Shown here piece after piece: positions 5,811-30,740 of a DNA stretch of 55,326 bases; positions within the stretch are counted from its first letter, which is position 1, and the number at the start of each line of letters is the position of its first letter. The notes beneath the pieces are model-generated. The model ran no database searches. It was not told the DNA's origin and saw nothing but the letters and a program-made list of their open reading frames with translations. Made by a program: the position numbers and the translations under genes. Source of the stretch: Bacteroidales bacterium (GTDB lineage: Bacteria > Bacteroidota > Bacteroidia > Bacteroidales > Dysgonomonadaceae). The stretch lies in assembly GCA_012838585.1 (NCBI GenBank), contig DUPB01000259.1:1-55326 (forward strand). The letters are read 5' to 3'.

Positions 5811-7784
5811 TCATGGGGTGGGATTTTTGGGTCGCCTACCCCGGTTTAGTTTTAGTCCCTGTTCGTATGACTCCTTACCGTATATATCGTCAACGCTAAT
5901 GAGCCCTATATTTGCCAGTATCCCCTTGACCATGAAGCCGCAATCCTCGTTTTCCGTAGCTGGGAGCGAGTTGGCTTTGTCGATCAACTCATCCGCGTAC
6001 TTTTGTATCAAGGGGTGCATGGCCGGGTTCATTGATAGCGACTCAAGCAGGGAGTACCCTATTTTCCGCTCCTCTTCATTTGCCGGGTACAAGAGCCGGT
6101 GTATCCCCTCTTCTGTCTCGTTCAAGTAGGTGACGGCATACGCGGCCTCACAGGCCACGTAGGGATCGGGGTCTTTTATCAGTCGGATGAGTTCCCGTGG
6201 GGCACGCGTTAAGTTGCCTGTCACGGCAGATTGTGCGCAAGCTACCGCGGCCCAGTAGCGCATGTTCGGGTCATCGCTCCCGAGCGCGTTGATCAACATG
6301 GGCATATCATCCTCCCCGGTGGCTCCTACCAGTTCGGCCATCGCGTAGAGCTGTTCCAACGGGTAATTCGTCTTCTTGACCTTCTCGTACAGGTTGACCC
6401 CCTCCCTTGATGAGGGGATAAAAAAGCCCAAATCCCCTGTTTCACGGATATGTTGCGAAACGGCCTCCCTAAACTCGATGAGCAACGTTTCATAGTGGGG
6501 GTTTCCCGCCAGGTTGTTCAGTTCAAAGGGGTCCGACTCTATATCGAAGAGCATCTCCGCCGGGTGTAGCGAGTAGGGTTGCAGCCAGGTGGGGTTGGCC
6601 ATCTGTTTCTCCAACACCAGCTTGTCCCACGACTTGTTGGCGGGCATACCCCATTGGTAGTAGTTTCGTAAAGCGAACTGCTTGTACGGCACGTAGCTTC
6701 GGATGTACTTGTACCGGCCGTTCGTCGCCGCCCGCACCGGCATGAAATGGTGCAATTGGTTGCTCCCGAAAGCGAATCGCGTACCGTTCTTTTCGCGGTT
6801 AGCGGCCTGTTTTCCTACTATCGCTTGCCCTTGCATCTGTTCGGGGGGATGAATACCCGCGAGGCTCAATACCGTGGGGGCTAAATCGATAAAGCTTACC
6901 GGTGCGTGAACCTTCGTGCCGGGGGCTTCCGTGATAAGGTGTTGCCATTTCCGGGGTACATGGATGATAAGGGGCACCTTTAGACCCGTTTCGTATAGGT
7001 ACCCCTTGCCCCGGGGCAAGCAACCACCGTTATCGCTGAAAACGAAAATCAGGGTGTTTTCGAGGAGGTTTTTCTCTTTCAGGTCGGAGATAAACAGGCC
7101 GACCCATTCATCCACATCCTGGACGGCTTCCAGGTGGGCGGCGTAATCCGAGCGCATCTCATAAGTGTCAGGCACGTAGGGCGGCAATGGCAATTGAGCC
7201 GGAAATACACCTTCCCGGGTGTAATCGCGCCGACCATCGAGGTGAAACGTGCGTAACCTTCCCATATGCGAGGTGACCGTGTTGAATACAGAGAAAAACG
7301 GTTGGTTGTCACCCCGCCTATCGCTATTGTAGGAGGCGGTATCGCTGCACTCATCCCAAAACAGGGTATTGTCGAACGTGGTATTGTAGTGGGTCTTGCT
7401 GTTGTTGGTGCAGAAGTAGCCCTGCTCCCGCAGAAGTTCAGGGAAAAATATGGCACGCGGTGTGTCAACCGGTCGCGGGTGGATATCCATCCCGTACGTG
7501 GTCGCGTAGCAGCCTGTTATCAGGGATGAGCGCGCGGGCGAGCTTTGGGGGGCCACCGACCACGCGTTCATGAATTGAATCCCGTGGCTGGCCATTGAAT
7601 CGATGCGCGCTGTTTGAACATGTTCATTCCCGTAGCAGCCCAGCTCATACCAGCTTGTATCTTCAAATGTTAGCCAGAGGATATTCGGTTTGTCCTCGTG
7701 GCCGTCTTGGGCGTGGAGGTCACCCGTTCCCAAGAACAGCGGCAACATCGCCCCGCATATAGTGGGTATTCGCTTGGTTTTCAT
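5811..7784 (-). CDS. Serine-type S1 sulfatase with C-terminal HEAT-like repeats (possible heparan N-sulfatase)
   Basis: This is a 657-aa protein with a Sec signal peptide (cleavage near LHAQ). The alkaline-phosphatase-fold sulfatase domain spans about 33-450. Its formylglycine motif is S81-S-P-A-R85 followed by SSLITG, so it needs a radical-SAM (anSME-type) maturase. Metal and substrate elements include FEDTSW near residue 41 and FSDNGG in the middle. About residues 475-640 form helical repeats (ALGSDDPNMRYWAAVACAQ, LIKDPDPYVACEAAYA) typical of sulfatases with HEAT extensions. The N-terminal style (ILWLTFEDTSWYELGCYG) recalls the N-sulfoglucosamine sulfohydrolase type, so removal of N-sulfate from glucosamine is a reasonable guess but is not proven. 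The start overlaps the stop of the preceding sulfatase by 4 bases (ATGA), indicating translational coupling. Confidence 0.9.
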   Translation of the reverse strand: MKTKRIPTICGAMLPLFLGTGDLHAQDGHEDKPNILWLTFEDTSWYELGCYGNEHVQTARIDSMASHGIQFMNAWSVAPQSSPARSSLITGCYATTYGMDIHPRPVDTPRAIFFPELLREQGYFCTNNSKTHYNTTFDNTLFWDECSDTASYNSDRRGDNQPFFSVFNTVTSHMGRLRTFHLDGRRDYTREGVFPAQLPLPPYVPDTYEMRSDYAAHLEAVQDVDEWVGLFISDLKEKNLLENTLIFVFSDNGGCLPRGKGYLYETGLKVPLIIHVPRKWQHLITEAPGTKVHAPVSFIDLAPTVLSLAGIHPPEQMQGQAIVGKQAANREKNGTRFAFGSNQLHHFMPVRAATNGRYKYIRSYVPYKQFALRNYYQWGMPANKSWDKLVLEKQMANPTWLQPYSLHPAEMLFDIESDPFELNNLAGNPHYETLLIEFREAVSQHIRETGDLGFFIPSSREGVNLYEKVKKTNYPLEQLYAMAELVGATGEDDMPMLINALGSDDPNMRYWAAVACAQSAVTGNLTRAPRELIRLIKDPDPYVACEAAYAVTYLNETEEGIHRLLYPANEEERKIGYSLLESLSMNPAMHPLIQKYADELIDKANSLPATENEDCGFMVKGILANIGLISVDDIYGKESYEQGLKLNRGRRPKNPTP

Positions 7785-9358
7785 TCTTTGAAACTATCGT
7801 CCATATATTCTGTTTGCTTCTCCCTCAACAATCGCGTGAGCTCATCTCTTTTGTCGCTATATTCGGGTCGGTGGAAGAGGTTGTTCATCTCTTTCGGGTC
7901 GCTCCGGAGGTCGTACATCTCCCATTCATCGATATCGTTGTAAAAATGGATCAGCTTGTACTCGGCCGTGCGTATCCCGTAATGGCGTTTCACGGAGTGC
8001 TCGGCCGGGTACTCGTAATAGTGGTAATAGACCGCTTCCCGCCAGTCGGTAGGCGTTGCCCCCGCGTTTACCAACACCGGCTTGAGCGAGGTTCCCTGCA
8101 TATCCTCCGGCACCTCAATCCCCGCCATATCCAGGAAGGTGGGGGCGAAATCCACGTTCATGGCGAGGGCCGTTGACACGCTACCCGCCTGTATCGATTT
8201 CGGGTAACGAATCACCAGGGGCATGCGTTGCGACTCCTCATACATGAAACGCTTATCGAACCAACCATGTTCACCCAGGAAGAAACCTTGGTCCGACGTG
8301 TAGACCACGATGGTGTTATCCAGCTCTCCCTGTTCCTTCAAGTAATCCAGCACCCGCCCGATATTTTCATCTACGGCGAGCACGGTGGCTAGGTAATCCC
8401 TCATGTATTGTTGGTATTTCCACCGGACCAGTTCCCTGCCTCGCAACCGGCCGCTTTTGTACTCGGTAATACGTCCCGCGTACGCCGATTCCCACTTCTG
8501 TTGAACCTCCGGAGGCATGCGCCTGTACACGTTATAGTACCTGTTCGTGGTGTCGGCCAGCAGCTCTTGCCGCGTACGCAACTTTAAATCCCAATCCTCT
8601 TTAAGCGTCCGCTCAATTGACATGTCTTGTTCCTTGGCGGCGCGGCCGCGGGTGGCGTAGTCATCGAACAGGTTGTCGGGCTCGGGGAAAACCACGTCGT
8701 TGAAAATCCCCAGGTGACGCGGTGCCGGCATCCAGTTGCGGTGCGGTGCCTTCTGGTGGTACATGATGCAGAAAGGGCGGTCCTTTTCGCGCTTACCGAT
8801 AAAGTCGATCACTTTATCCGTGATGATGTCGGTAACGTACCCCTCCTCTTGGACAGGGTACCCGTTCTCGATAAAGTCGGGGCGGTAATAGTCGCCCTGC
8901 TCCCTTTGTCCGCTTAGGATACACCAGTGATCAAAGCCTTGAGGCTCGCTAATCAGGTGCCACTTGCCAATGATAGCCGTTTGGTACCCGTGTTCACGTA
9001 AGATTTTCGGGAAGGTTGACTGATTGCCGTCAAATTCGCTGGCATTGTCCCTGAACCCGTTCATGTGGCTGAACTTCCCCGTGAGGATGCAAGCCCTCGA
9101 GGGGCCTGAAATGGCGTTCACGACGTAGCAGTTGTTGAACCTTACGCCTTCAGCGGCAATCCGGTCGATATTGGGTGTCTCTATCAACCGGCTTCCGTAG
9201 CAGGATATCGCACTGGTGGCGTGGTCGTCCGTCATGATGAAGAGGATGTTGGGCCGTGTATCCTTCACCTCCTCATTCTTGGGGGCACAGGAGGGCATGG
9301 CTGCTGCCACGATCAACGAGGCACCTGCTTGCAGCGCTATCTTTCTTGAATGCATCAT
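7781..9358 (-). CDS. Serine-type S1 sulfatase, GlcNAc-6-O-sulfatase-like
   Basis: This is a 525-aa sulfatase. The signal sequence ends at a weak lipobox (AAMPSC24). The formylglycine motif is S84-G-P-S-R88 with ILTG downstream. IMTDDHATSAISCYG supplies metal ligands, GKWH is present near residue 130, and YTSDQGFFLGEHGWFDKR carries the second metal site and a substrate-binding Lys/Arg. The arrangement, especially the SDQGFFLGEHGWFDKR segment, resembles sulfatases that remove 6-O-sulfate from GlcNAc/GlcNS (as described for the Bacteroides heparin locus). That specificity is inferred. It is the middle of three consecutive sulfatases, 20 bp after the upstream one and overlapping the next by 4 bases. 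As a serine-type enzyme it needs an anaerobic sulfatase-maturating enzyme, which is not encoded here. Confidence 0.9.
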   Translation of the reverse strand: MMHSRKIALQAGASLIVAAAMPSCAPKNEEVKDTRPNILFIMTDDHATSAISCYGSRLIETPNIDRIAAEGVRFNNCYVVNAISGPSRACILTGKFSHMNGFRDNASEFDGNQSTFPKILREHGYQTAIIGKWHLISEPQGFDHWCILSGQREQGDYYRPDFIENGYPVQEEGYVTDIITDKVIDFIGKREKDRPFCIMYHQKAPHRNWMPAPRHLGIFNDVVFPEPDNLFDDYATRGRAAKEQDMSIERTLKEDWDLKLRTRQELLADTTNRYYNVYRRMPPEVQQKWESAYAGRITEYKSGRLRGRELVRWKYQQYMRDYLATVLAVDENIGRVLDYLKEQGELDNTIVVYTSDQGFFLGEHGWFDKRFMYEESQRMPLVIRYPKSIQAGSVSTALAMNVDFAPTFLDMAGIEVPEDMQGTSLKPVLVNAGATPTDWREAVYYHYYEYPAEHSVKRHYGIRTAEYKLIHFYNDIDEWEMYDLRSDPKEMNNLFHRPEYSDKRDELTRLLREKQTEYMDDSFKE

Positions 9359-24598: not shown

Positions 24599-27181
24599 CT
24601 ATATCTCCAGCTCGGGAAGTTGATCAACGAGGGTAACGCTATTGTCGCCTTCTTGTATCACGGTACTGTCATCGTATGTGAGCGTTATTTTCTTCTTATC
24701 GTTCTTGATGGTGAATCCTGCTTGCCCGTTCGTTGACAGGTTTAAGGTGATAATCCACTCTCCCATCTCTATTTGGGTATCTGATACCCGCTTGGGTATT
24801 ACCTCGGTCTCTTGATGACCGCGGGTGTTGATGACCGTGGCGAACCGGTATACCGTTTTACCCGGGGCGGTTGCAGTAAGGTGCCAGTGGTTTCGGTAGG
24901 GCTGGAAGTATCCCTTATCATCAGCCCTCAGCCAGTTGACTGCCGGCACGAAGAACTGGTTGGTCATCTCTACCTCCAGTTCGTTATCCGAGAAGAGGTA
25001 GGCATCTGAAATCCCCTTCTCGTTTGTGGCGCGAACGGTGAGCTCGTTCCCGTTTTGTTGTATGATCATCGGTTTTTCGACCGTGTGCAGCAGGTAATTC
25101 CAATCGACTGCGGTGTCTGCTTCCAGCTCGTCGTAGATAAATAGGAGGTCGGCCCCTCCTAACATCACGACATGCCTACGGAATAGGTTCACGTGGTTTT
25201 CGTCCCATCCTGTTGTCGGATCAAAGCTCAATTCGGAGTTGCGGGCGCGTTCCAGCCAGATGGGCGATACCACTTTACCGTAGGCGTTGGAGGCATCTCC
25301 AAGCAGGTAGCTGATCTTCTCTCCCGTGTAGTGGCGCGGTATCCACCCGTACCCTTCCGTGCCTATTTTTTGGCCCATGCTGTTAACCAGTATGGTGTTG
25401 TGTGCCCGGCTGGCGCGGTGACAGTACAAGCTGTGCGCATCTACGAAGCTGGAGTGGTGGCCGCTGCTGTAGAACAGGGGTTTACCCCCGTAGAAGGTGT
25501 TAAAGGCGTTCTGGTTGGCCAACGCGTGCGATGTGGAGCCGTACGGGCTTGACCGGAAGGTACACATCGCGTTTTGTTCCAGGTTCTGCCAGTCTGACAT
25601 GAACGAGGCGAGTCCCGTTTGGGGGAATACGTACGAGAGCGGCAGCTCTGATAGCGATGCGCCTGTTGGGAGGGGGATGTCGCAATGCAGCCTGAACCAG
25701 GATAGGTCTCCCGGCTTGGAGCCAAACGCGTCGTACAGAATATCGGGCTCGGCTTCTGAAATGACGTTCACGTAATCCGTTAAGTAGGCGTTACCGGTTA
25801 ACCGTGCGATGGCGTCGGCGTACCCTACCCGGGTGCCTCTAGGTTTTACCACGCTTTGGTGTTGGCTTCCATTCCCCCCGGACTTGGAGAAGGGGGGTTG
25901 CTGGGTGATCACGTACATGGCGGATCCGTTATACCATGGGTCGGCAAAAAAGTTGTAGCCGGTAACTTTACTGTAAAAGTAGGGTACCTCCACGAGCGTG
26001 CGAAGATTGGTATGGAAGTATGAATCACCGTTATGCCAAGCCCCATCTGCGTTGAGACCCGGGAAGCGTGCCAACCAGAGGTTGTACGCGTAGTCGACCC
26101 ACAACTTAGCTTCGGGCAAATCCCCGTACATGGCGAAGGCCGCCAGGGTGAAAATACGGAGGTTCATCTGCCAGATGTGGTTATCGGCAATATGGTTTTC
26201 CAGCCGGTTCGCGAGGTTCCGGAATATATTCCCGCCAGTCTCTTTGATCTCGCTTTTCAGCATCTCCTTCTGATTCTCCGTTAACAGGTGATAAAAGGAG
26301 TCGTAAGCCAGCGATGCAACCGATAAGATGGTGGCTTCGTTAAAGTCACCGACCAGGTGTGGGCTTTTTTTCCATGACACCATCTCTTCGATACGTGCCA
26401 TGGCATTCTCGAAGTAGGCTTTCTCTTTCGTCAAGAGGTAGGAACGGATGAGCACGTCGATATATCGCTCCTCTTTGTCCACGATCCTCCGGCTTTCCCG
26501 GGTGATCATCGCGGTTCTTTGTACCTGGTTTGTTAAGCCCTCCATGTAGCTGGTGTTGACAGCTTCGTCGAAATTAACTAGCTCTTCTTTAACGATTTTA
26601 GCTGCGCTTTCAAGAAACCATGCGCGCTCCTTTTTGTCCTTGCTTTTCTCGATGAAGTGGTTCCACTCCCTCTTAAAGAGCAAAACGCGGGGGTGTTGCA
26701 TCGGCAATTTCCGCAGAACCGTTTTAAGTGGGGGAGGTGTAAATTTATCGGGATTCTTTTTCACCTCGAACCGCAACAGGTCTGACCACTTCGTTTCGCT
26801 GCCGTTCACGTACCCGTACTGCCAATACCAAACCCCCGGTGAAAGCACCTGCTCGGGGTTGTAAAACGGCCAGCAGGTCTCCGCTTTGAACACCTTGCCC
26901 TTGAGTGCCGGGTTTTTTGAAAAGCGTATCCGATAATTCACCTCGTCCTCTTTGGGCTTGCTCAGCCTCGTTTTTCCTTCCGTGTAGTACAACATGTAAT
27001 TTTCTAACGGCCACATGAACGAAACGTTCTTGTCAGACACGGTGGCGTTAGGTAACGGGGAGGGCGTGGAACGCGTTTCATGCATTAGATTGGGTTGGTT
27101 GATCCTCAGCGTGGCCTCCCCTGCCGCGTGCATGCATAGCGGCAGTATCAGGGCAATTAGTAACGTTTTATATCTTTCCAT
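24599..27181 (-). CDS. PL15-like exo-heparinase (DUF4962 plus heparinase II/III C-terminal domain)
   Basis: The ORF track opens at 27238, but the signal peptide begins at MERYKTLLIAL, so I place the start at 27181 (860 aa). After an Ig/FN3-like N-terminal module (about 35-150, FMWPLENYMLYY to WSDLLRFEV) come the toroid (about 155-520) and beta-sheet domains. Candidate catalytic residues in this numbering are H335 (DNHIWQMN), Y388 (HNGDSYFHTN) and H552 (YGSTSHALANQN). Their spacing (53, then 164) is nearly that of His337/Tyr390/His555, which I recall for a Bacteroides exo-heparinase of PL15. Length and domain order also fit. It would release unsaturated disaccharides from chain ends, in the periplasm since no lipobox is seen. 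The family is inferred by motif spacing, not alignment. It lies 262 bp upstream of susC. Confidence 0.87.
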   Translation of the reverse strand: MERYKTLLIALILPLCMHAAGEATLRINQPNLMHETRSTPSPLPNATVSDKNVSFMWPLENYMLYYTEGKTRLSKPKEDEVNYRIRFSKNPALKGKVFKAETCWPFYNPEQVLSPGVWYWQYGYVNGSETKWSDLLRFEVKKNPDKFTPPPLKTVLRKLPMQHPRVLLFKREWNHFIEKSKDKKERAWFLESAAKIVKEELVNFDEAVNTSYMEGLTNQVQRTAMITRESRRIVDKEERYIDVLIRSYLLTKEKAYFENAMARIEEMVSWKKSPHLVGDFNEATILSVASLAYDSFYHLLTENQKEMLKSEIKETGGNIFRNLANRLENHIADNHIWQMNLRIFTLAAFAMYGDLPEAKLWVDYAYNLWLARFPGLNADGAWHNGDSYFHTNLRTLVEVPYFYSKVTGYNFFADPWYNGSAMYVITQQPPFSKSGGNGSQHQSVVKPRGTRVGYADAIARLTGNAYLTDYVNVISEAEPDILYDAFGSKPGDLSWFRLHCDIPLPTGASLSELPLSYVFPQTGLASFMSDWQNLEQNAMCTFRSSPYGSTSHALANQNAFNTFYGGKPLFYSSGHHSSFVDAHSLYCHRASRAHNTILVNSMGQKIGTEGYGWIPRHYTGEKISYLLGDASNAYGKVVSPIWLERARNSELSFDPTTGWDENHVNLFRRHVVMLGGADLLFIYDELEADTAVDWNYLLHTVEKPMIIQQNGNELTVRATNEKGISDAYLFSDNELEVEMTNQFFVPAVNWLRADDKGYFQPYRNHWHLTATAPGKTVYRFATVINTRGHQETEVIPKRVSDTQIEMGEWIITLNLSTNGQAGFTIKNDKKKITLTYDDSTVIQEGDNSVTLVDQLPELEI

Positions 27182-27421
27182 ACGATTCGAATATTTATTA
27201 ACAAAAGCCAATTTGTTTATTAATGGGTTAATGAGCACACTTAGTGCGCAGACAATCTGTCGATAAAAATAGCCCTTTAATTCCTAAGATACACTTTTGT
27301 TACTGAATATATATTTTAAAATATCCTCTTTTTCCTTTAACTTTTGTTCAGGTTAGGCGATGGGTGAACCGTGAAACAAAAGAAGGCAAATAGTTTCAGA
27401 AATAAAACAGTTCTTCAGCCG

Positions 27422-27451
27422 TTGTTTTATTTCCTCAAATCACTATATTTG
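27422..27451 (+). promoter_or_regulatory. Strong Bacteroidetes-type promoter of the redox cassette
   Basis: A TTG at 27422-27424 is followed, after exactly 19 bp, by TATATTTG at 27444-27451. This is a full match to the TTG-N19-TAnnTTTG arrangement used by the Bacteroidetes primary sigma factor. Predicted transcription would start near 27458 and leave an unusually long leader of about 190 nt before the ATG at 27651. Confidence 0.75.
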
Positions 27452-27461
27452 TGAAAGATTA

Positions 27462-27485
27462 GCTCCTTGGGAAACCGAGTGGAGC
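27462..27485 (+). promoter_or_regulatory. Leader hairpin with GAAA tetraloop
   Basis: GCTCC (27462-27466) pairs with GGAGC (27481-27485). The inner TTGG pairs with CCGA around a GAAA loop, leaving a two-base bulge (GT). It lies immediately after the predicted transcription start of the aldo/keto reductase operon. A GNRA-capped stem at the very 5' end suggests an mRNA-stabilising or protein/RNA-binding element. No known riboswitch family was recognised, and no U-tract follows, so it is not a terminator. Confidence 0.5.
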
Positions 27486-27650
27486 GTACATGGGTAACGA
27501 TCTGATGTGGAATATTTGAAAACAGTTGGAACAAAAATGACCCTTTCAATAATAAGTTGAGTCATAACAGGTGAATAATAGTGTTTTGAGAGGAAGAAGT
27601 TGAAAGGTTTTTGCCCTTGCAACTGGAAATTGAAAAAAATGTTGAAGAAT

Positions 27651-29039
27651 ATGGAAACGAACCACATGTCTGGCCAGCGAAAAATTTCCCGACGAAAAGC
27701 GTTAAAGTACATGGGCTTGGGTGCCGCGTTAATCCCGGCGAGCTGGTGCCTGGCAGGGTGCTCCGGCCGCTCGAAAATGGATTGGGCGGACATTAAGCCC
27801 GACATTGAAAATGTGCCGGTCGACAAGATGACCTACACCACTATCTCTAAAACGGGGGATAGAATCTCCCTGCTCGGTTATGGGGCGATGCGTTTTCCCA
27901 CGGTGGAACGTGAAACGCCGGAAGGGGTGCGGCGGTTTATCGATGAGGCAAAGGCGGAGGAGTTAATCGATTTCGCCATGGCTCACGGGGTTAACTATTT
28001 CGATACAGCGTGGGGGTATCACCAAGGTGAGTCTGAAATCGTTCTCGGTAAACTGCTGAAAAAATACCCGAGGGAGAGTTTTTTCGTGGCGACGAAAATG
28101 CCGGGGAGCGCGCGATCGAGGGAAGACGCCATCGCGATTTATCACAAGCAGTTAGAGAAGTTGCAGCTTGATTATTTCGACTACTATCATCTGCATAGCT
28201 TGTCGAACGACCGGACGTATGAACGCCTCTACAAGGAGTGGGGTATACTTGATTTTCTCTTGAACGAGAAAAAGGAGGGGCGCATCCGTAACCTGGGTTT
28301 TTCGTTTCACGGGAATCAAGCGTTTTTCGATAAGCTGCTCGCGGAGCCGGTCGAGTGGGATTTCGTGATGATCCAGATGAATTACCTCGACTGGAAATAC
28401 GCGCGTGTGCCTGCCAGTTACATGTACAACGAGTTGGAAAAGAGGCATATTCCCGTCATGATCATGGAGCCGCTCTTAGGGGGCCGGTTGACGAAAGTGA
28501 GCCGCAACGTGATAGAGATGATGAGGGAGGAGCGCCCGAATGATACACCGGCACGTTGGGCGTTCCGCTTCGTGGGCTCTCACCCGCAGGTGATGGTCGT
28601 CTTGAGCGGGATGACATTATTGGACCACTTGAAAGAAAACATCAAAACCTATTCACCCCTTGAGCCGATGACGGATAAGGAGAAAGAGATCCTTCAAAAA
28701 GCTGCCGATATTATCACGACCTACAAAATCATCCCCTGTACCGATTGCAAGTATTGCGTGCCTTGCCCGTACGGGGTGGATATACCCGGGATACTTTTGT
28801 ATTTCAACAAAGCCACGTACGACAGCAATGTCCCAAACCTTGATGGGCCACGCGACGCGGAATTCAAGAGGGCATCCCGTGCCTTTTTGGTCGATTACAA
28901 TCGTACCATTCCCGAGTTGGAACAGGCTAACCACTGCATCAATTGTGGCGACTGCTTGTCAACGTGTCCCCAGCGGATAAGGATTCCCATGGAGTTACTC
29001 AGAATTGACCATCTTGTACAACAACTAAAAGTGCAGTAA
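27651..29039 (+). CDS. Tat-exported aldo/keto reductase with C-terminal double [4Fe-4S] domain
   Basis: The track start at 27600 is a TTG. I prefer the ATG at 27651 (METNHMSGQ, 462 aa; 27639 is also possible), which puts a twin-arginine-like motif (SRRKALKYMG) and lipobox LAGC near the N-terminus. The TIM-barrel aldo/keto reductase keeps the catalytic tetrad by motif: Asp and Tyr in FDTAWGYHQGE, Lys in VATKMPG, and His in YYHLHSL. The C-terminus carries two ferredoxin-type Cys sets, CTDCKYCVPCP and CINCGDCLSTCP. Cofactor-loaded Fe-S proteins are normally exported folded, in agreement with Tat. It lies 4 bp before the membrane polyferredoxin gene, which is the obvious electron partner. Substrate unknown; a link to the flanking GAG loci is only positional. 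Confidence 0.88.
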   Translation: METNHMSGQRKISRRKALKYMGLGAALIPASWCLAGCSGRSKMDWADIKPDIENVPVDKMTYTTISKTGDRISLLGYGAMRFPTVERETPEGVRRFIDEAKAEELIDFAMAHGVNYFDTAWGYHQGESEIVLGKLLKKYPRESFFVATKMPGSARSREDAIAIYHKQLEKLQLDYFDYYHLHSLSNDRTYERLYKEWGILDFLLNEKKEGRIRNLGFSFHGNQAFFDKLLAEPVEWDFVMIQMNYLDWKYARVPASYMYNELEKRHIPVMIMEPLLGGRLTKVSRNVIEMMREERPNDTPARWAFRFVGSHPQVMVVLSGMTLLDHLKENIKTYSPLEPMTDKEKEILQKAADIITTYKIIPCTDCKYCVPCPYGVDIPGILLYFNKATYDSNVPNLDGPRDAEFKRASRAFLVDYNRTIPELEQANHCINCGDCLSTCPQRIRIPMELLRIDHLVQQLKVQ

Positions 29040-29043
29040 TATC

Positions 29044-30720
29044 ATGTTGAAAAAAATAAGGATCGTTCTTGCCGTTATTTTCGGACTGCTCATCACGATG
29101 CTGTTCCTCGATATTTCGGGGGTTTTGCACCGCTATTTTGCCTTCGCTGCCAAACTGCAATTCGTTCCCGCCCTGCTCGCGTTGAATGCGGTGGTGCTTA
29201 TCGTGCTGGTGCTTCTGACGCTTATTTTCGGGAGGGTTTACTGTTCCGTTATCTGTCCCACCGGTATTTACCAGGACGTGGTGGCTTTTTTCGCACGGCG
29301 CTTAAAGCCCAAAAAGAGACGTCGCTATCGTTACTCGAAGCCGAAAACCGTGTTGCGGTGGGTTATACTCGTTCTGTTCGTTATCGGGATTATCGCCGGG
29401 ATTGGCGTTATCCCTGCGCTGTTGGATCCCTACTCCATGTATGGCCGTATGGTTGCCGAGTTGTTGAGCCCCCTTTATAACGGGATAAATAACCTGATAG
29501 TGAAAGCATTGGGGGATGGGAGTTACACGTTCGTGGAAACCGATATATGGATGAAAAGCGGGGTCAGCTTCGCGTTGGCCCTATTGACGTTGCTCGTTAT
29601 CGGCTATTTGGCCTGGCGAAGCGGGCGTACCTACTGCAACACCATCTGCCCCGTGGGTACCCTATTGGGCTACTTGAGCAAGCTCTCTTTCCTGAAAATT
29701 CAGATTAACCCTTCCAGTTGTATCCAATGTGGACGATGCGTACGCGATTGCAAGGCGTCGTGCATTGATATGAAACAGCATGCCATCGACTATTCCCGTT
29801 GTGTCTCTTGTTTCAACTGCATTGACGCGTGCAGGGAAAACAGCATTGTTTATACCGGGAGCTGGACGACGAATCGAAAAGTGAGTCAAACGGCCGGCAA
29901 TGGAATCGAAAATGAAGGGGGTAACGCAGGGGAGAAAATAGCGACCAAAGTGGCAGGTCAAGAAGTGAACATAGGGACGGGAAAAGCTGAGGGAAAAGCT
30001 GAGGGAAAAGCAGTGCAACAAGTCACTGGTAAAGCCGCGAACTCCCGGAGGGAGTTTATTACCACATCGTTGCTTATCGCGGGAACCGCCGCGGAGCTGA
30101 TGGCTCAGGATAAAAAGCGAAGCATGATCAAGTTCCCGGCGGTCAGGAAAGAGCGCTTTAACCGAATGAAACCGGTAACGCCCCCCGGCTCGGTTAGCCG
30201 CGGTCACCTGAACGATACCTGTACCGCTTGCTTGCTTTGCGTGGCGAAATGCCCCGAAAAGATCATTCGCCCTTCGGCAAATGAGTACGGCTGGGAGTTT
30301 GTTATGCAGCCCACCCTCTCTTTCGAAAAGGGGTATTGCCGGACCGATTGTACCATCTGCTCCGACGTGTGCCCCACTGATGCGATTAAAGGGCTTACGA
30401 CAGAGAATAAAACCCAAACGGCGATTGGTCACGCGGTCTACCTTCGCGAGAACTGCGTGGTGGTGAGGGATGATGTGAACTGCGATGCCTGTTGGCGCAT
30501 ATGCCCCACCGATGCCATTAGCCGCGAGTACCGGGATGATGGCAAGCCTTACATACCGCCGACAGATAACCCGAACGCGAGCACAATTAATCTACGTCTC
30601 GTTCCCGTGATCGACAAGGATAAATGCATCGGCTGCGGAGCGTGCGAGTATATTTGCGCGGCCCGCCCGTTGGCCGCGATACACGTGGAGGGTTACGCTA
30701 CCCATCGGCTTCTTACCTGA
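29044..30720 (+). CDS. NapH-like membrane polyferredoxin fused to a NapG/NapF-like ferredoxin domain
   Basis: This is a 558-aa protein. Four membrane helices (about 5-25, 38-63, 100-125 and 175-195) carry CSVICPTG and CNTICPVG motifs between or after them, as in NapH/MauN/RdxA proteins. Two ferredoxin sets follow (CIQCGRCVRDCK, CVSCFNCIDAC). A low-complexity linker (GKAEGKAEGKA, about 312-322) leads to an internal Tat-like segment SRREF (334-338) with a hydrophobic stretch. A second domain then has four further Cys groups (CTACLLCVAKCP, CRTDCTICSDVCP, CDACWRICP, CIGCGACEYIC). It looks like a membrane electron conduit with Fe-S domains possibly on both sides of the membrane. It is coupled to the reductase gene (4 bp) and ends in a terminator. 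Confidence 0.88.
   Translation: MLKKIRIVLAVIFGLLITMLFLDISGVLHRYFAFAAKLQFVPALLALNAVVLIVLVLLTLIFGRVYCSVICPTGIYQDVVAFFARRLKPKKRRRYRYSKPKTVLRWVILVLFVIGIIAGIGVIPALLDPYSMYGRMVAELLSPLYNGINNLIVKALGDGSYTFVETDIWMKSGVSFALALLTLLVIGYLAWRSGRTYCNTICPVGTLLGYLSKLSFLKIQINPSSCIQCGRCVRDCKASCIDMKQHAIDYSRCVSCFNCIDACRENSIVYTGSWTTNRKVSQTAGNGIENEGGNAGEKIATKVAGQEVNIGTGKAEGKAEGKAVQQVTGKAANSRREFITTSLLIAGTAAELMAQDKKRSMIKFPAVRKERFNRMKPVTPPGSVSRGHLNDTCTACLLCVAKCPEKIIRPSANEYGWEFVMQPTLSFEKGYCRTDCTICSDVCPTDAIKGLTTENKTQTAIGHAVYLRENCVVVRDDVNCDACWRICPTDAISREYRDDGKPYIPPTDNPNASTINLRLVPVIDKDKCIGCGACEYICAARPLAAIHVEGYATHRLLT
29979..30012 (+). repeat. 12-bp tandem repeat inside the polyferredoxin linker
   Basis: The unit GGGAAAAGCTGA is present about 2.8 times in perfect register with the reading frame (12 bp is 4 codons), encoding repeated G-K-A-E. 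It lies in the hydrophilic linker between the NapH-like and NapG-like halves. Copy-number change would lengthen or shorten the linker without frameshift. Confidence 0.85.
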
Positions 30721-30740
30721 AAGCCGATGGGCAGTGTTTT
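30701..30740 (+). terminator. Rho-independent terminator overlapping the polyferredoxin stop codon
   Basis: CCCATCGGCTT (30701-30711) and AAGCCGATGGG (30721-30731) form a perfect 11-bp stem with a 9-nt loop that contains the TGA stop. A run of five T residues follows at 30736-30740. It closes the plus-strand redox operon 5 bp before the convergent sulfatase stop at 30745. On the minus strand no T-run follows the stem, so it probably acts in one direction. Confidence 0.85.

Follow-up and report, generated by a model that had tools for sequence, protein, structure and literature searches.

A predicted exported iron-sulfur aldo/keto reductase and its NapH-NapG fusion partner as a putative quinone-linked periplasmic system in Bacteroidales

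A whole contig of 55,326 nucleotides (nt) from a Bacteroidales genome, referred to below as the window, carries a two-gene cassette that encodes an aldo/keto reductase (AKR) with iron-sulfur (Fe-S) cluster motifs and a membrane polyferredoxin in which NapH- and NapG-like parts are fused (NapHG). We propose, with a probability of about 0.5, that the two products would form a membrane-bound, quinone-linked periplasmic oxidoreductase with the AKR, predicted to be exported by the twin-arginine translocation (Tat) pathway, as its terminal subunit. The domain make-up, the Tat and lipoprotein signals, the co-occurrence with tatC and the near-obligate partnership of the two genes are read from the sequence and its comparison with relatives. 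Both genes lie on the (+) strand with a gap of 4 nt (Table 1), as expected from a preliminary description of this DNA, which had noted a tightly spaced two-gene unit.

The survey on which the comparisons rest comprised 96 loci including the window, the proteins of which were clustered and found to contain 70 exported-type AKRs. The AKR of the window is readable as an open frame from a TTG at 27600, the likeliest start being the ATG at 27651 and an alternative the ATG at 27639. The protein combines a TIM barrel and an Asp-Tyr-Lys-His tetrad, as is characteristic of the AKR superfamily, with a C-terminal Fe-S domain. The tetrad residues D135, Y140, K166 and H199 are invariant in 70/70 exported-type homologues, which makes a catalytic role of the barrel probable. 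The same 70 sequences, as well as ten non-exported-type homologues, show no variation at any of the eight Fe-S cysteines. The intact tetrad and the two [4Fe-4S] motifs of the preliminary description thus hold throughout the exported set. AlphaFold prediction with few sequences gave a barrel model of fair quality and modest confidence, which Foldseek matched to AKRs, and a Fe-S domain with a confidence score (pLDDT) of about 30; the output for NapHG was unusable. By profile and by fold, L-galactose dehydrogenases are among the AKRs of solved structure that come closest, and none of the PDB chains among the matches listed spans both the AKR and the Fe-S domain. On viral contigs, only two relatives of the AKR were found.

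The N-terminal signal of the AKR has the features of a Tat lipoprotein, namely an S/T-RR-x-F/A-L-K motif, a hydrophobic region (h-region) and a lipobox cysteine, and the protein is accordingly predicted to be a Tat-exported lipoprotein. The first arginine is conserved in 70/70 and the second in 68/70 exported-type homologues (Lys in 2), while the lipobox cysteine is found in 67/70, and tatC is present in the genome of the window. The twin arginine had been seen earlier and stands; the lipoprotein nature of the signal had been overlooked. Two AKRs, at L173 (6135-7523) and L175 (7301-8680), carry RK in the Tat motif rather than RR.

The second gene had been described as encoding a membrane protein with several Fe-S sites, and the domain matches specify this as a NapH match in the first half of the chain and a NapG match in the second, both partial and below the curated cut-offs. 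Among 82 homologues, 28 cysteines are invariant. The NapH-type membrane part with its CxxxCP sites and Fer4 pairs is followed by an internal twin arginine (SRREF, residues 334-338), a weakly hydrophobic helix, positive charges and then four [4Fe-4S] sites, i.e. the features of a dual Sec/Tat polyferredoxin. A relative of this type was found to be inserted by Sec and Tat together in E. coli (Tooke et al. 2017, PMC5449189). The internal signal, located between the NapH and NapG halves, is well conserved (R336 in 96% and R335 in 85% of the homologues), and its h-region has a hydrophobicity of 1.5 vs 2.4-3.2 for the four preceding transmembrane helices. The fused, Fe-S-rich polyferredoxin of the preliminary description is hence retained, with the addition of an internal Tat signal that it had missed. 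Past this signal, A354 (88%) and Q355 (83%) are conserved amid variable surroundings (30103-30108). This conservation suggests signal-peptidase cleavage between the two halves, with A354/Q355 as a likely candidate site for signal peptidase I, and suggests that NapH and NapG may be made as one chain and then cleaved, the fusion acting as a polyprotein.

The genome of the window holds a second NapHG (locus L068, G000:C9:19000-30966; gene at 7509-9140) with 46% identity to the first, which adjoins a Tat-signal DUF362 protein, a phosphoribosyltransferase-like gene and an ECF-S-like membrane protein; this would be a sister module with another partner. In the NapHG tree the DUF362-partnered set is separated from the AKR-partnered set (branch support 93), and the AKR is therefore, as judged from the tree, the regular partner of one NapHG branch.

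A same-strand NapHG gene was found within 6 kb in 67/70 exported-type AKRs, a fraction that is descriptive, since the loci were found via the AKR or NapHG itself and the relatives are not independent. The two genes are separated by a median of 11 nt in 66 paired loci; NapHG precedes the AKR in 56 of these and follows it in 10. Both gene orders occur, and the AKR-NapHG link therefore appears to survive rearrangement; on these comparative grounds the change in gene order is a better sign of a functional link than the pairing fraction. As comparators we used ten Fe-S AKRs shorter than 440 amino acids; eight of them have no export signal, and two (L185 and L189) have an RR signal and no lipobox. 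No NapHG was found near any of these ten. In combination, the comparisons point to a near-obligate partnership between the exported AKR and NapHG. At L188 (7765-10055), a non-exported Fe-S AKR occurs with ECF-S-like and DUF1893 genes and no NapHG, and the trio of AKR, ECF-S-like protein and DUF1893 may be older than the link to NapHG.

The co-occurrence with tatC was assessed in a sample of 393 Bacteroidales genomes, in which exported-type and other AKR matches were sorted by score. Carriers of the exported type amount to 72/393 genomes, or about a fifth. All 72 carriers have tatC vs 255 of the 321 non-carriers (p = 7e-7), and tatC lies within 6 kb of the AKR on the same strand at 9/70 loci. 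The other frequent neighbours of the AKR are an ECF-S-like membrane protein (16/70), DUF1893 (14/70) and a flavodoxin with a signal peptide (12/70), and a small TonB receptor adjoins it at 10/70 loci. With such neighbours, a compound resembling a vitamin or cofactor would be a better fit as the substrate than a product of polysaccharide breakdown. At three loci the AKR is C-terminally fused to DUF1893 (TM1506), in L166 (7175-9106), L170 (7134-8978) and L176 (7624-9468), a fusion that would place DUF1893 in the periplasm. DUF362-like proteins with signal peptides, judged by eye, were observed inside the AKR loci L140 (6638-7624), L150 (9660-10742) and L161 (9176-10165), and the two kinds of module, AKR and DUF362, may act jointly.

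The cassette has expression signals of its own. An upstream -33/-7 pair, TTG-N19-TATATTTG, is taken to be a Bacteroidetes-type promoter from its match to the consensus of that type; the -7 box has the same letters in both nearest relatives, and the bare pattern TAnnTTTG is no rarer in the window than expected by chance. The hairpin at the end of the unit is strong (free energy -28.1 kcal/mol, z-score -5.9). Neither a sigma-70 scan nor a terminator scan at default settings gave anything above chance; the terminator probably escaped because its loop exceeds the length that the scan allows. Promoter and terminator were thus correctly anticipated in the preliminary description, as was the orientation of the cassette on the strand opposite to both flanking sets of glycosaminoglycan (GAG) genes. 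The leader hairpin that it listed is indeed present, albeit weak and without clear conservation in the relative L070. The possibility that the leader holds a riboswitch was set aside in view of the weak fold, the little conservation and an Rfam scan that returned no match.

Table 1. Positions of the cassette genes and associated elements in the window.
Feature	Position	Strand	Details
Bacteroidetes-type promoter	27422..27451	+	TTG (27422-27424), 19 nt, TATATTTG (27444-27451)
Leader hairpin, weak	27462..27485	+	z about -1.7
Exported Fe-S AKR (predicted)	27651..29039	+	Pfam Aldo_ket_red 9.7e-38 and Fer4_9 / Fer4 dicluster domains; homologue alignment
AKR Tat lipoprotein signal (predicted)	27690..27761	+	SRRKALKYMG...LAGC; RR 27690-27695, lipobox Cys54 27759-27761
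Two C-terminal [4Fe-4S] motifs of AKR	28737..28969	+	C380-383-386-389 and C446-449-452-456
NapH-NapG fusion, dual Sec/Tat membrane polyferredoxin	29044..30720	+	napH_ 9.1e-21, NapG 1.1e-17
Internal Tat signal SRREFITTSLLIAGTAAELMAQ of NapHG	30043..30108	+	residues 334-355, then DKKR
Intrinsic terminator	~30700..30738	+	overlaps NapHG stop codon; strong hairpin, then T-run

In the proposed mechanism, the NapH part (four Sec-inserted helices, two CxxxCP and two Fer4 sites) would exchange electrons with menaquinone, and the NapG part with its four [4Fe-4S] clusters would be moved to the periplasmic side by the internal Tat signal, perhaps to be freed there by signal peptidase. Electrons would pass from NapG to the pair of [4Fe-4S] clusters in the AKR, a protein that Tat would export already folded and that its lipoprotein anchor would hold at the outer face of the inner membrane. 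Catalysis at the end of this chain would fall to the barrel with its tetrad, most likely as the reduction of a periplasmic small molecule. The electron flow from cluster to cluster, its reductive direction and the assumption that the substrate is small and not derived from GAG are our inferences. The NapH-type electron route suggested earlier for the partner of the AKR is supported, and the accompanying suggestion that quinol reduces a carbonyl calls for caution on energetic grounds. Ordinary carbonyl/alcohol couples lie near -0.2 V. With menaquinol at -75 mV (PMC6195509) the reduction of an ordinary carbonyl would be uphill, and therefore a higher-potential substrate, reverse electron flow or reductive maturation is plausible instead.

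Several further observations weigh against a quinone-linked terminal reductase. AKR chemistry is a hydride transfer, and no flavin domain was seen that could couple it to one-electron clusters. The same Fe-S domain is present in non-exported AKR relatives, and no usable model of this domain or of the complex was obtained (pLDDT <50 there). Exported-type AKRs at L163, L172 and L190 have no same-strand NapHG nearby, the NapHG being on the other strand. Moreover, whether NapGH acts as a quinol dehydrogenase is a matter of dispute (PMC6195509).

The flow of electrons could also be the reverse, with the AKR oxidizing a periplasmic alcohol or lactol and NapHG feeding menaquinone, for fumarate reduction. 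By the potentials given above, menaquinone (-75 mV, PMC6195509) would readily accept electrons from such couples but be ill suited to supply them, and the L-galactose dehydrogenases among the nearest solved AKRs agree with an oxidative role. Conversely, published accounts have modules of the NapGH type delivering electrons to the periplasm (PMC5449189, PMC6195509) and the periplasmic flavodoxin neighbours suggest reductive chemistry, so that we regard this direction as unlikely, though it is the alternative that survives best. Next in order, NapHG and the AKR might serve to mature, reduce or repair a cofactor or another exported protein, and not to respire or to break down a substrate. Reductive maturation has been proposed for NapGH (PMC6195509), and the associations with DUF1893 (AKR-fused in L166, L170 and L176), the ECF-S-like protein, the TonB receptor, DUF362 and tatC are in line with it. 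However, no consistent client enzyme was found at the locus and in the window the pair stands alone; on balance we consider this role improbable.

The residues of the nucleotide pocket bear on whether the AKR might instead be exported with NAD(P) permanently bound, in which case the Fe-S domain would have a docking or structural function. Among the exported AKRs, S336, G337, M338 and N347 never vary and Q259 occurs in 67/70; non-exported kin share all five. Transport of an NADP-loaded enzyme by Tat is known for glucose-fructose oxidoreductase, from a reference cited in PMC6708511. The claim of the preliminary description that the enzyme works without NADPH is consequently not borne out. Still, His occupies position 343 in 70/70 exported AKRs vs Gln in 8/10 non-exported kin. 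This position aligns, by our own alignment to AKR1 numbering, with what we take to be the 2'-phosphate/adenosine-binding Arg of AKR1 enzymes. The fixed partnership with NapHG would moreover be left unexplained, and NAD(P)-loaded export appears very unlikely.

The preliminary description, which placed the cassette between two GAG loci, had named a sugar, a keto-uronate or a xenobiotic as the possible carbonyl substrate; at issue here is whether the pair is a GAG-locus enzyme that reduces a sugar or keto-uronate. In the window the cassette lies between heparin-type genes on its left (heparinase-type lyases, SGSH-type sulfatases, GH88-like and ROK genes) and chondroitin-type genes on its right (two PL8 lyases, GH88-like, SusCD and a hybrid sensor). 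The gene adjoining the cassette at 24599-27238 combines DUF4962 with a heparinase II/III C-terminal domain and is a likely polysaccharide lyase. GAG-type enzymes were found at 3/69 other AKR loci: L069, a 92% relative that also lies in such a locus; L070, an 87% relative beside GH88-like, ROK and uronate genes; and L079 (48%), which directly adjoins a PL8 lyase and a sulfatase. Two of the three are close relatives. The PL8 chondroitinase is mildly enriched among carriers of the AKR (18% vs 7%, p = 0.005), which could be explained by a shared habitat. However, it is missing from 59/72 carriers, relatives at 68-78% identity lie beside housekeeping or unrelated genes, and the cassette runs on the other strand under a promoter and terminator of its own. 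The survey thus places the pair mostly outside GAG contexts, an outcome that the preliminary description had itself set as refuting, and a GAG-locus enzyme is highly improbable; judged by these comparisons, the GAG context is local and the pair probably has no tie to the sugar-digestion genes around it here.

Among described systems, the MLMS-1 PFD family polyferredoxin (PMC5449189) is closest in design to NapHG, with a NapH-like membrane part bearing cytoplasmic Fe-S sites, an internal twin arginine, a weakly hydrophobic fifth helix, positive charges and a NapG-like periplasmic part with four [4Fe-4S]. Unlike that family, NapHG has the conserved A354-Q355 after the signal, hinting at cleavage, and the main text of PMC5449189 mentions no AKR or DUF362 partner and names Bacteroidetes only for another family. 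With the NapGH quinol dehydrogenase of E. coli and Wolinella, NapHG shares the domain types and a likely route for electrons from quinol to the periplasm. It differs in being one fused chain that scores under the curated NapH and NapG cut-offs and in having an AKR as partner rather than the NapAB nitrate reductase; no Nap reductase genes were seen among the annotated genes of the window. The AKR itself matches its non-exported Fe-S relatives, which we label the COG1453 type, in barrel, tetrad and the two [4Fe-4S] motifs at the C-terminus; these relatives in turn have no Tat lipoprotein signal, no NapHG neighbour and mostly Q rather than H at 343. Fold and tetrad are also shared with the NAD(P)-dependent L-galactose dehydrogenase, AKR11C1 and Kv-beta, whereas these have neither a Fe-S domain nor an export signal. 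In the literature outside subscription journals we found no description of the AKR-NapHG pair, of COG1453, or of DUF1893 or DUF362 with an AKR or NapH. The architecture of each protein is already known; what would be new is their pairing as an exported, quinone-linked system.

AKRs form a large superfamily of which NAD(P)H is the defining feature and for which dependence on the cytosolic pool is assumed. If the proposed quinone-linked oxidoreductase is correct, an AKR branch present in 72/393 of the Bacteroidales genomes sampled would act outside the cytoplasm, run by the respiratory quinone pool. The dual Sec/Tat polyferredoxins would gain a natural partner and a testable role, and DUF1893, DUF362 and solitary ECF-S-like proteins would be joined in one system. 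More tentatively, and against the odds as we see them, the pair could represent a widespread respiratory class of AKRs, periplasmic and supplied with single electrons from the quinone pool via a NapH-NapG polyprotein, within a larger system that includes DUF1893, the ECF-S-like protein, flavodoxin and a dedicated TonB receptor.

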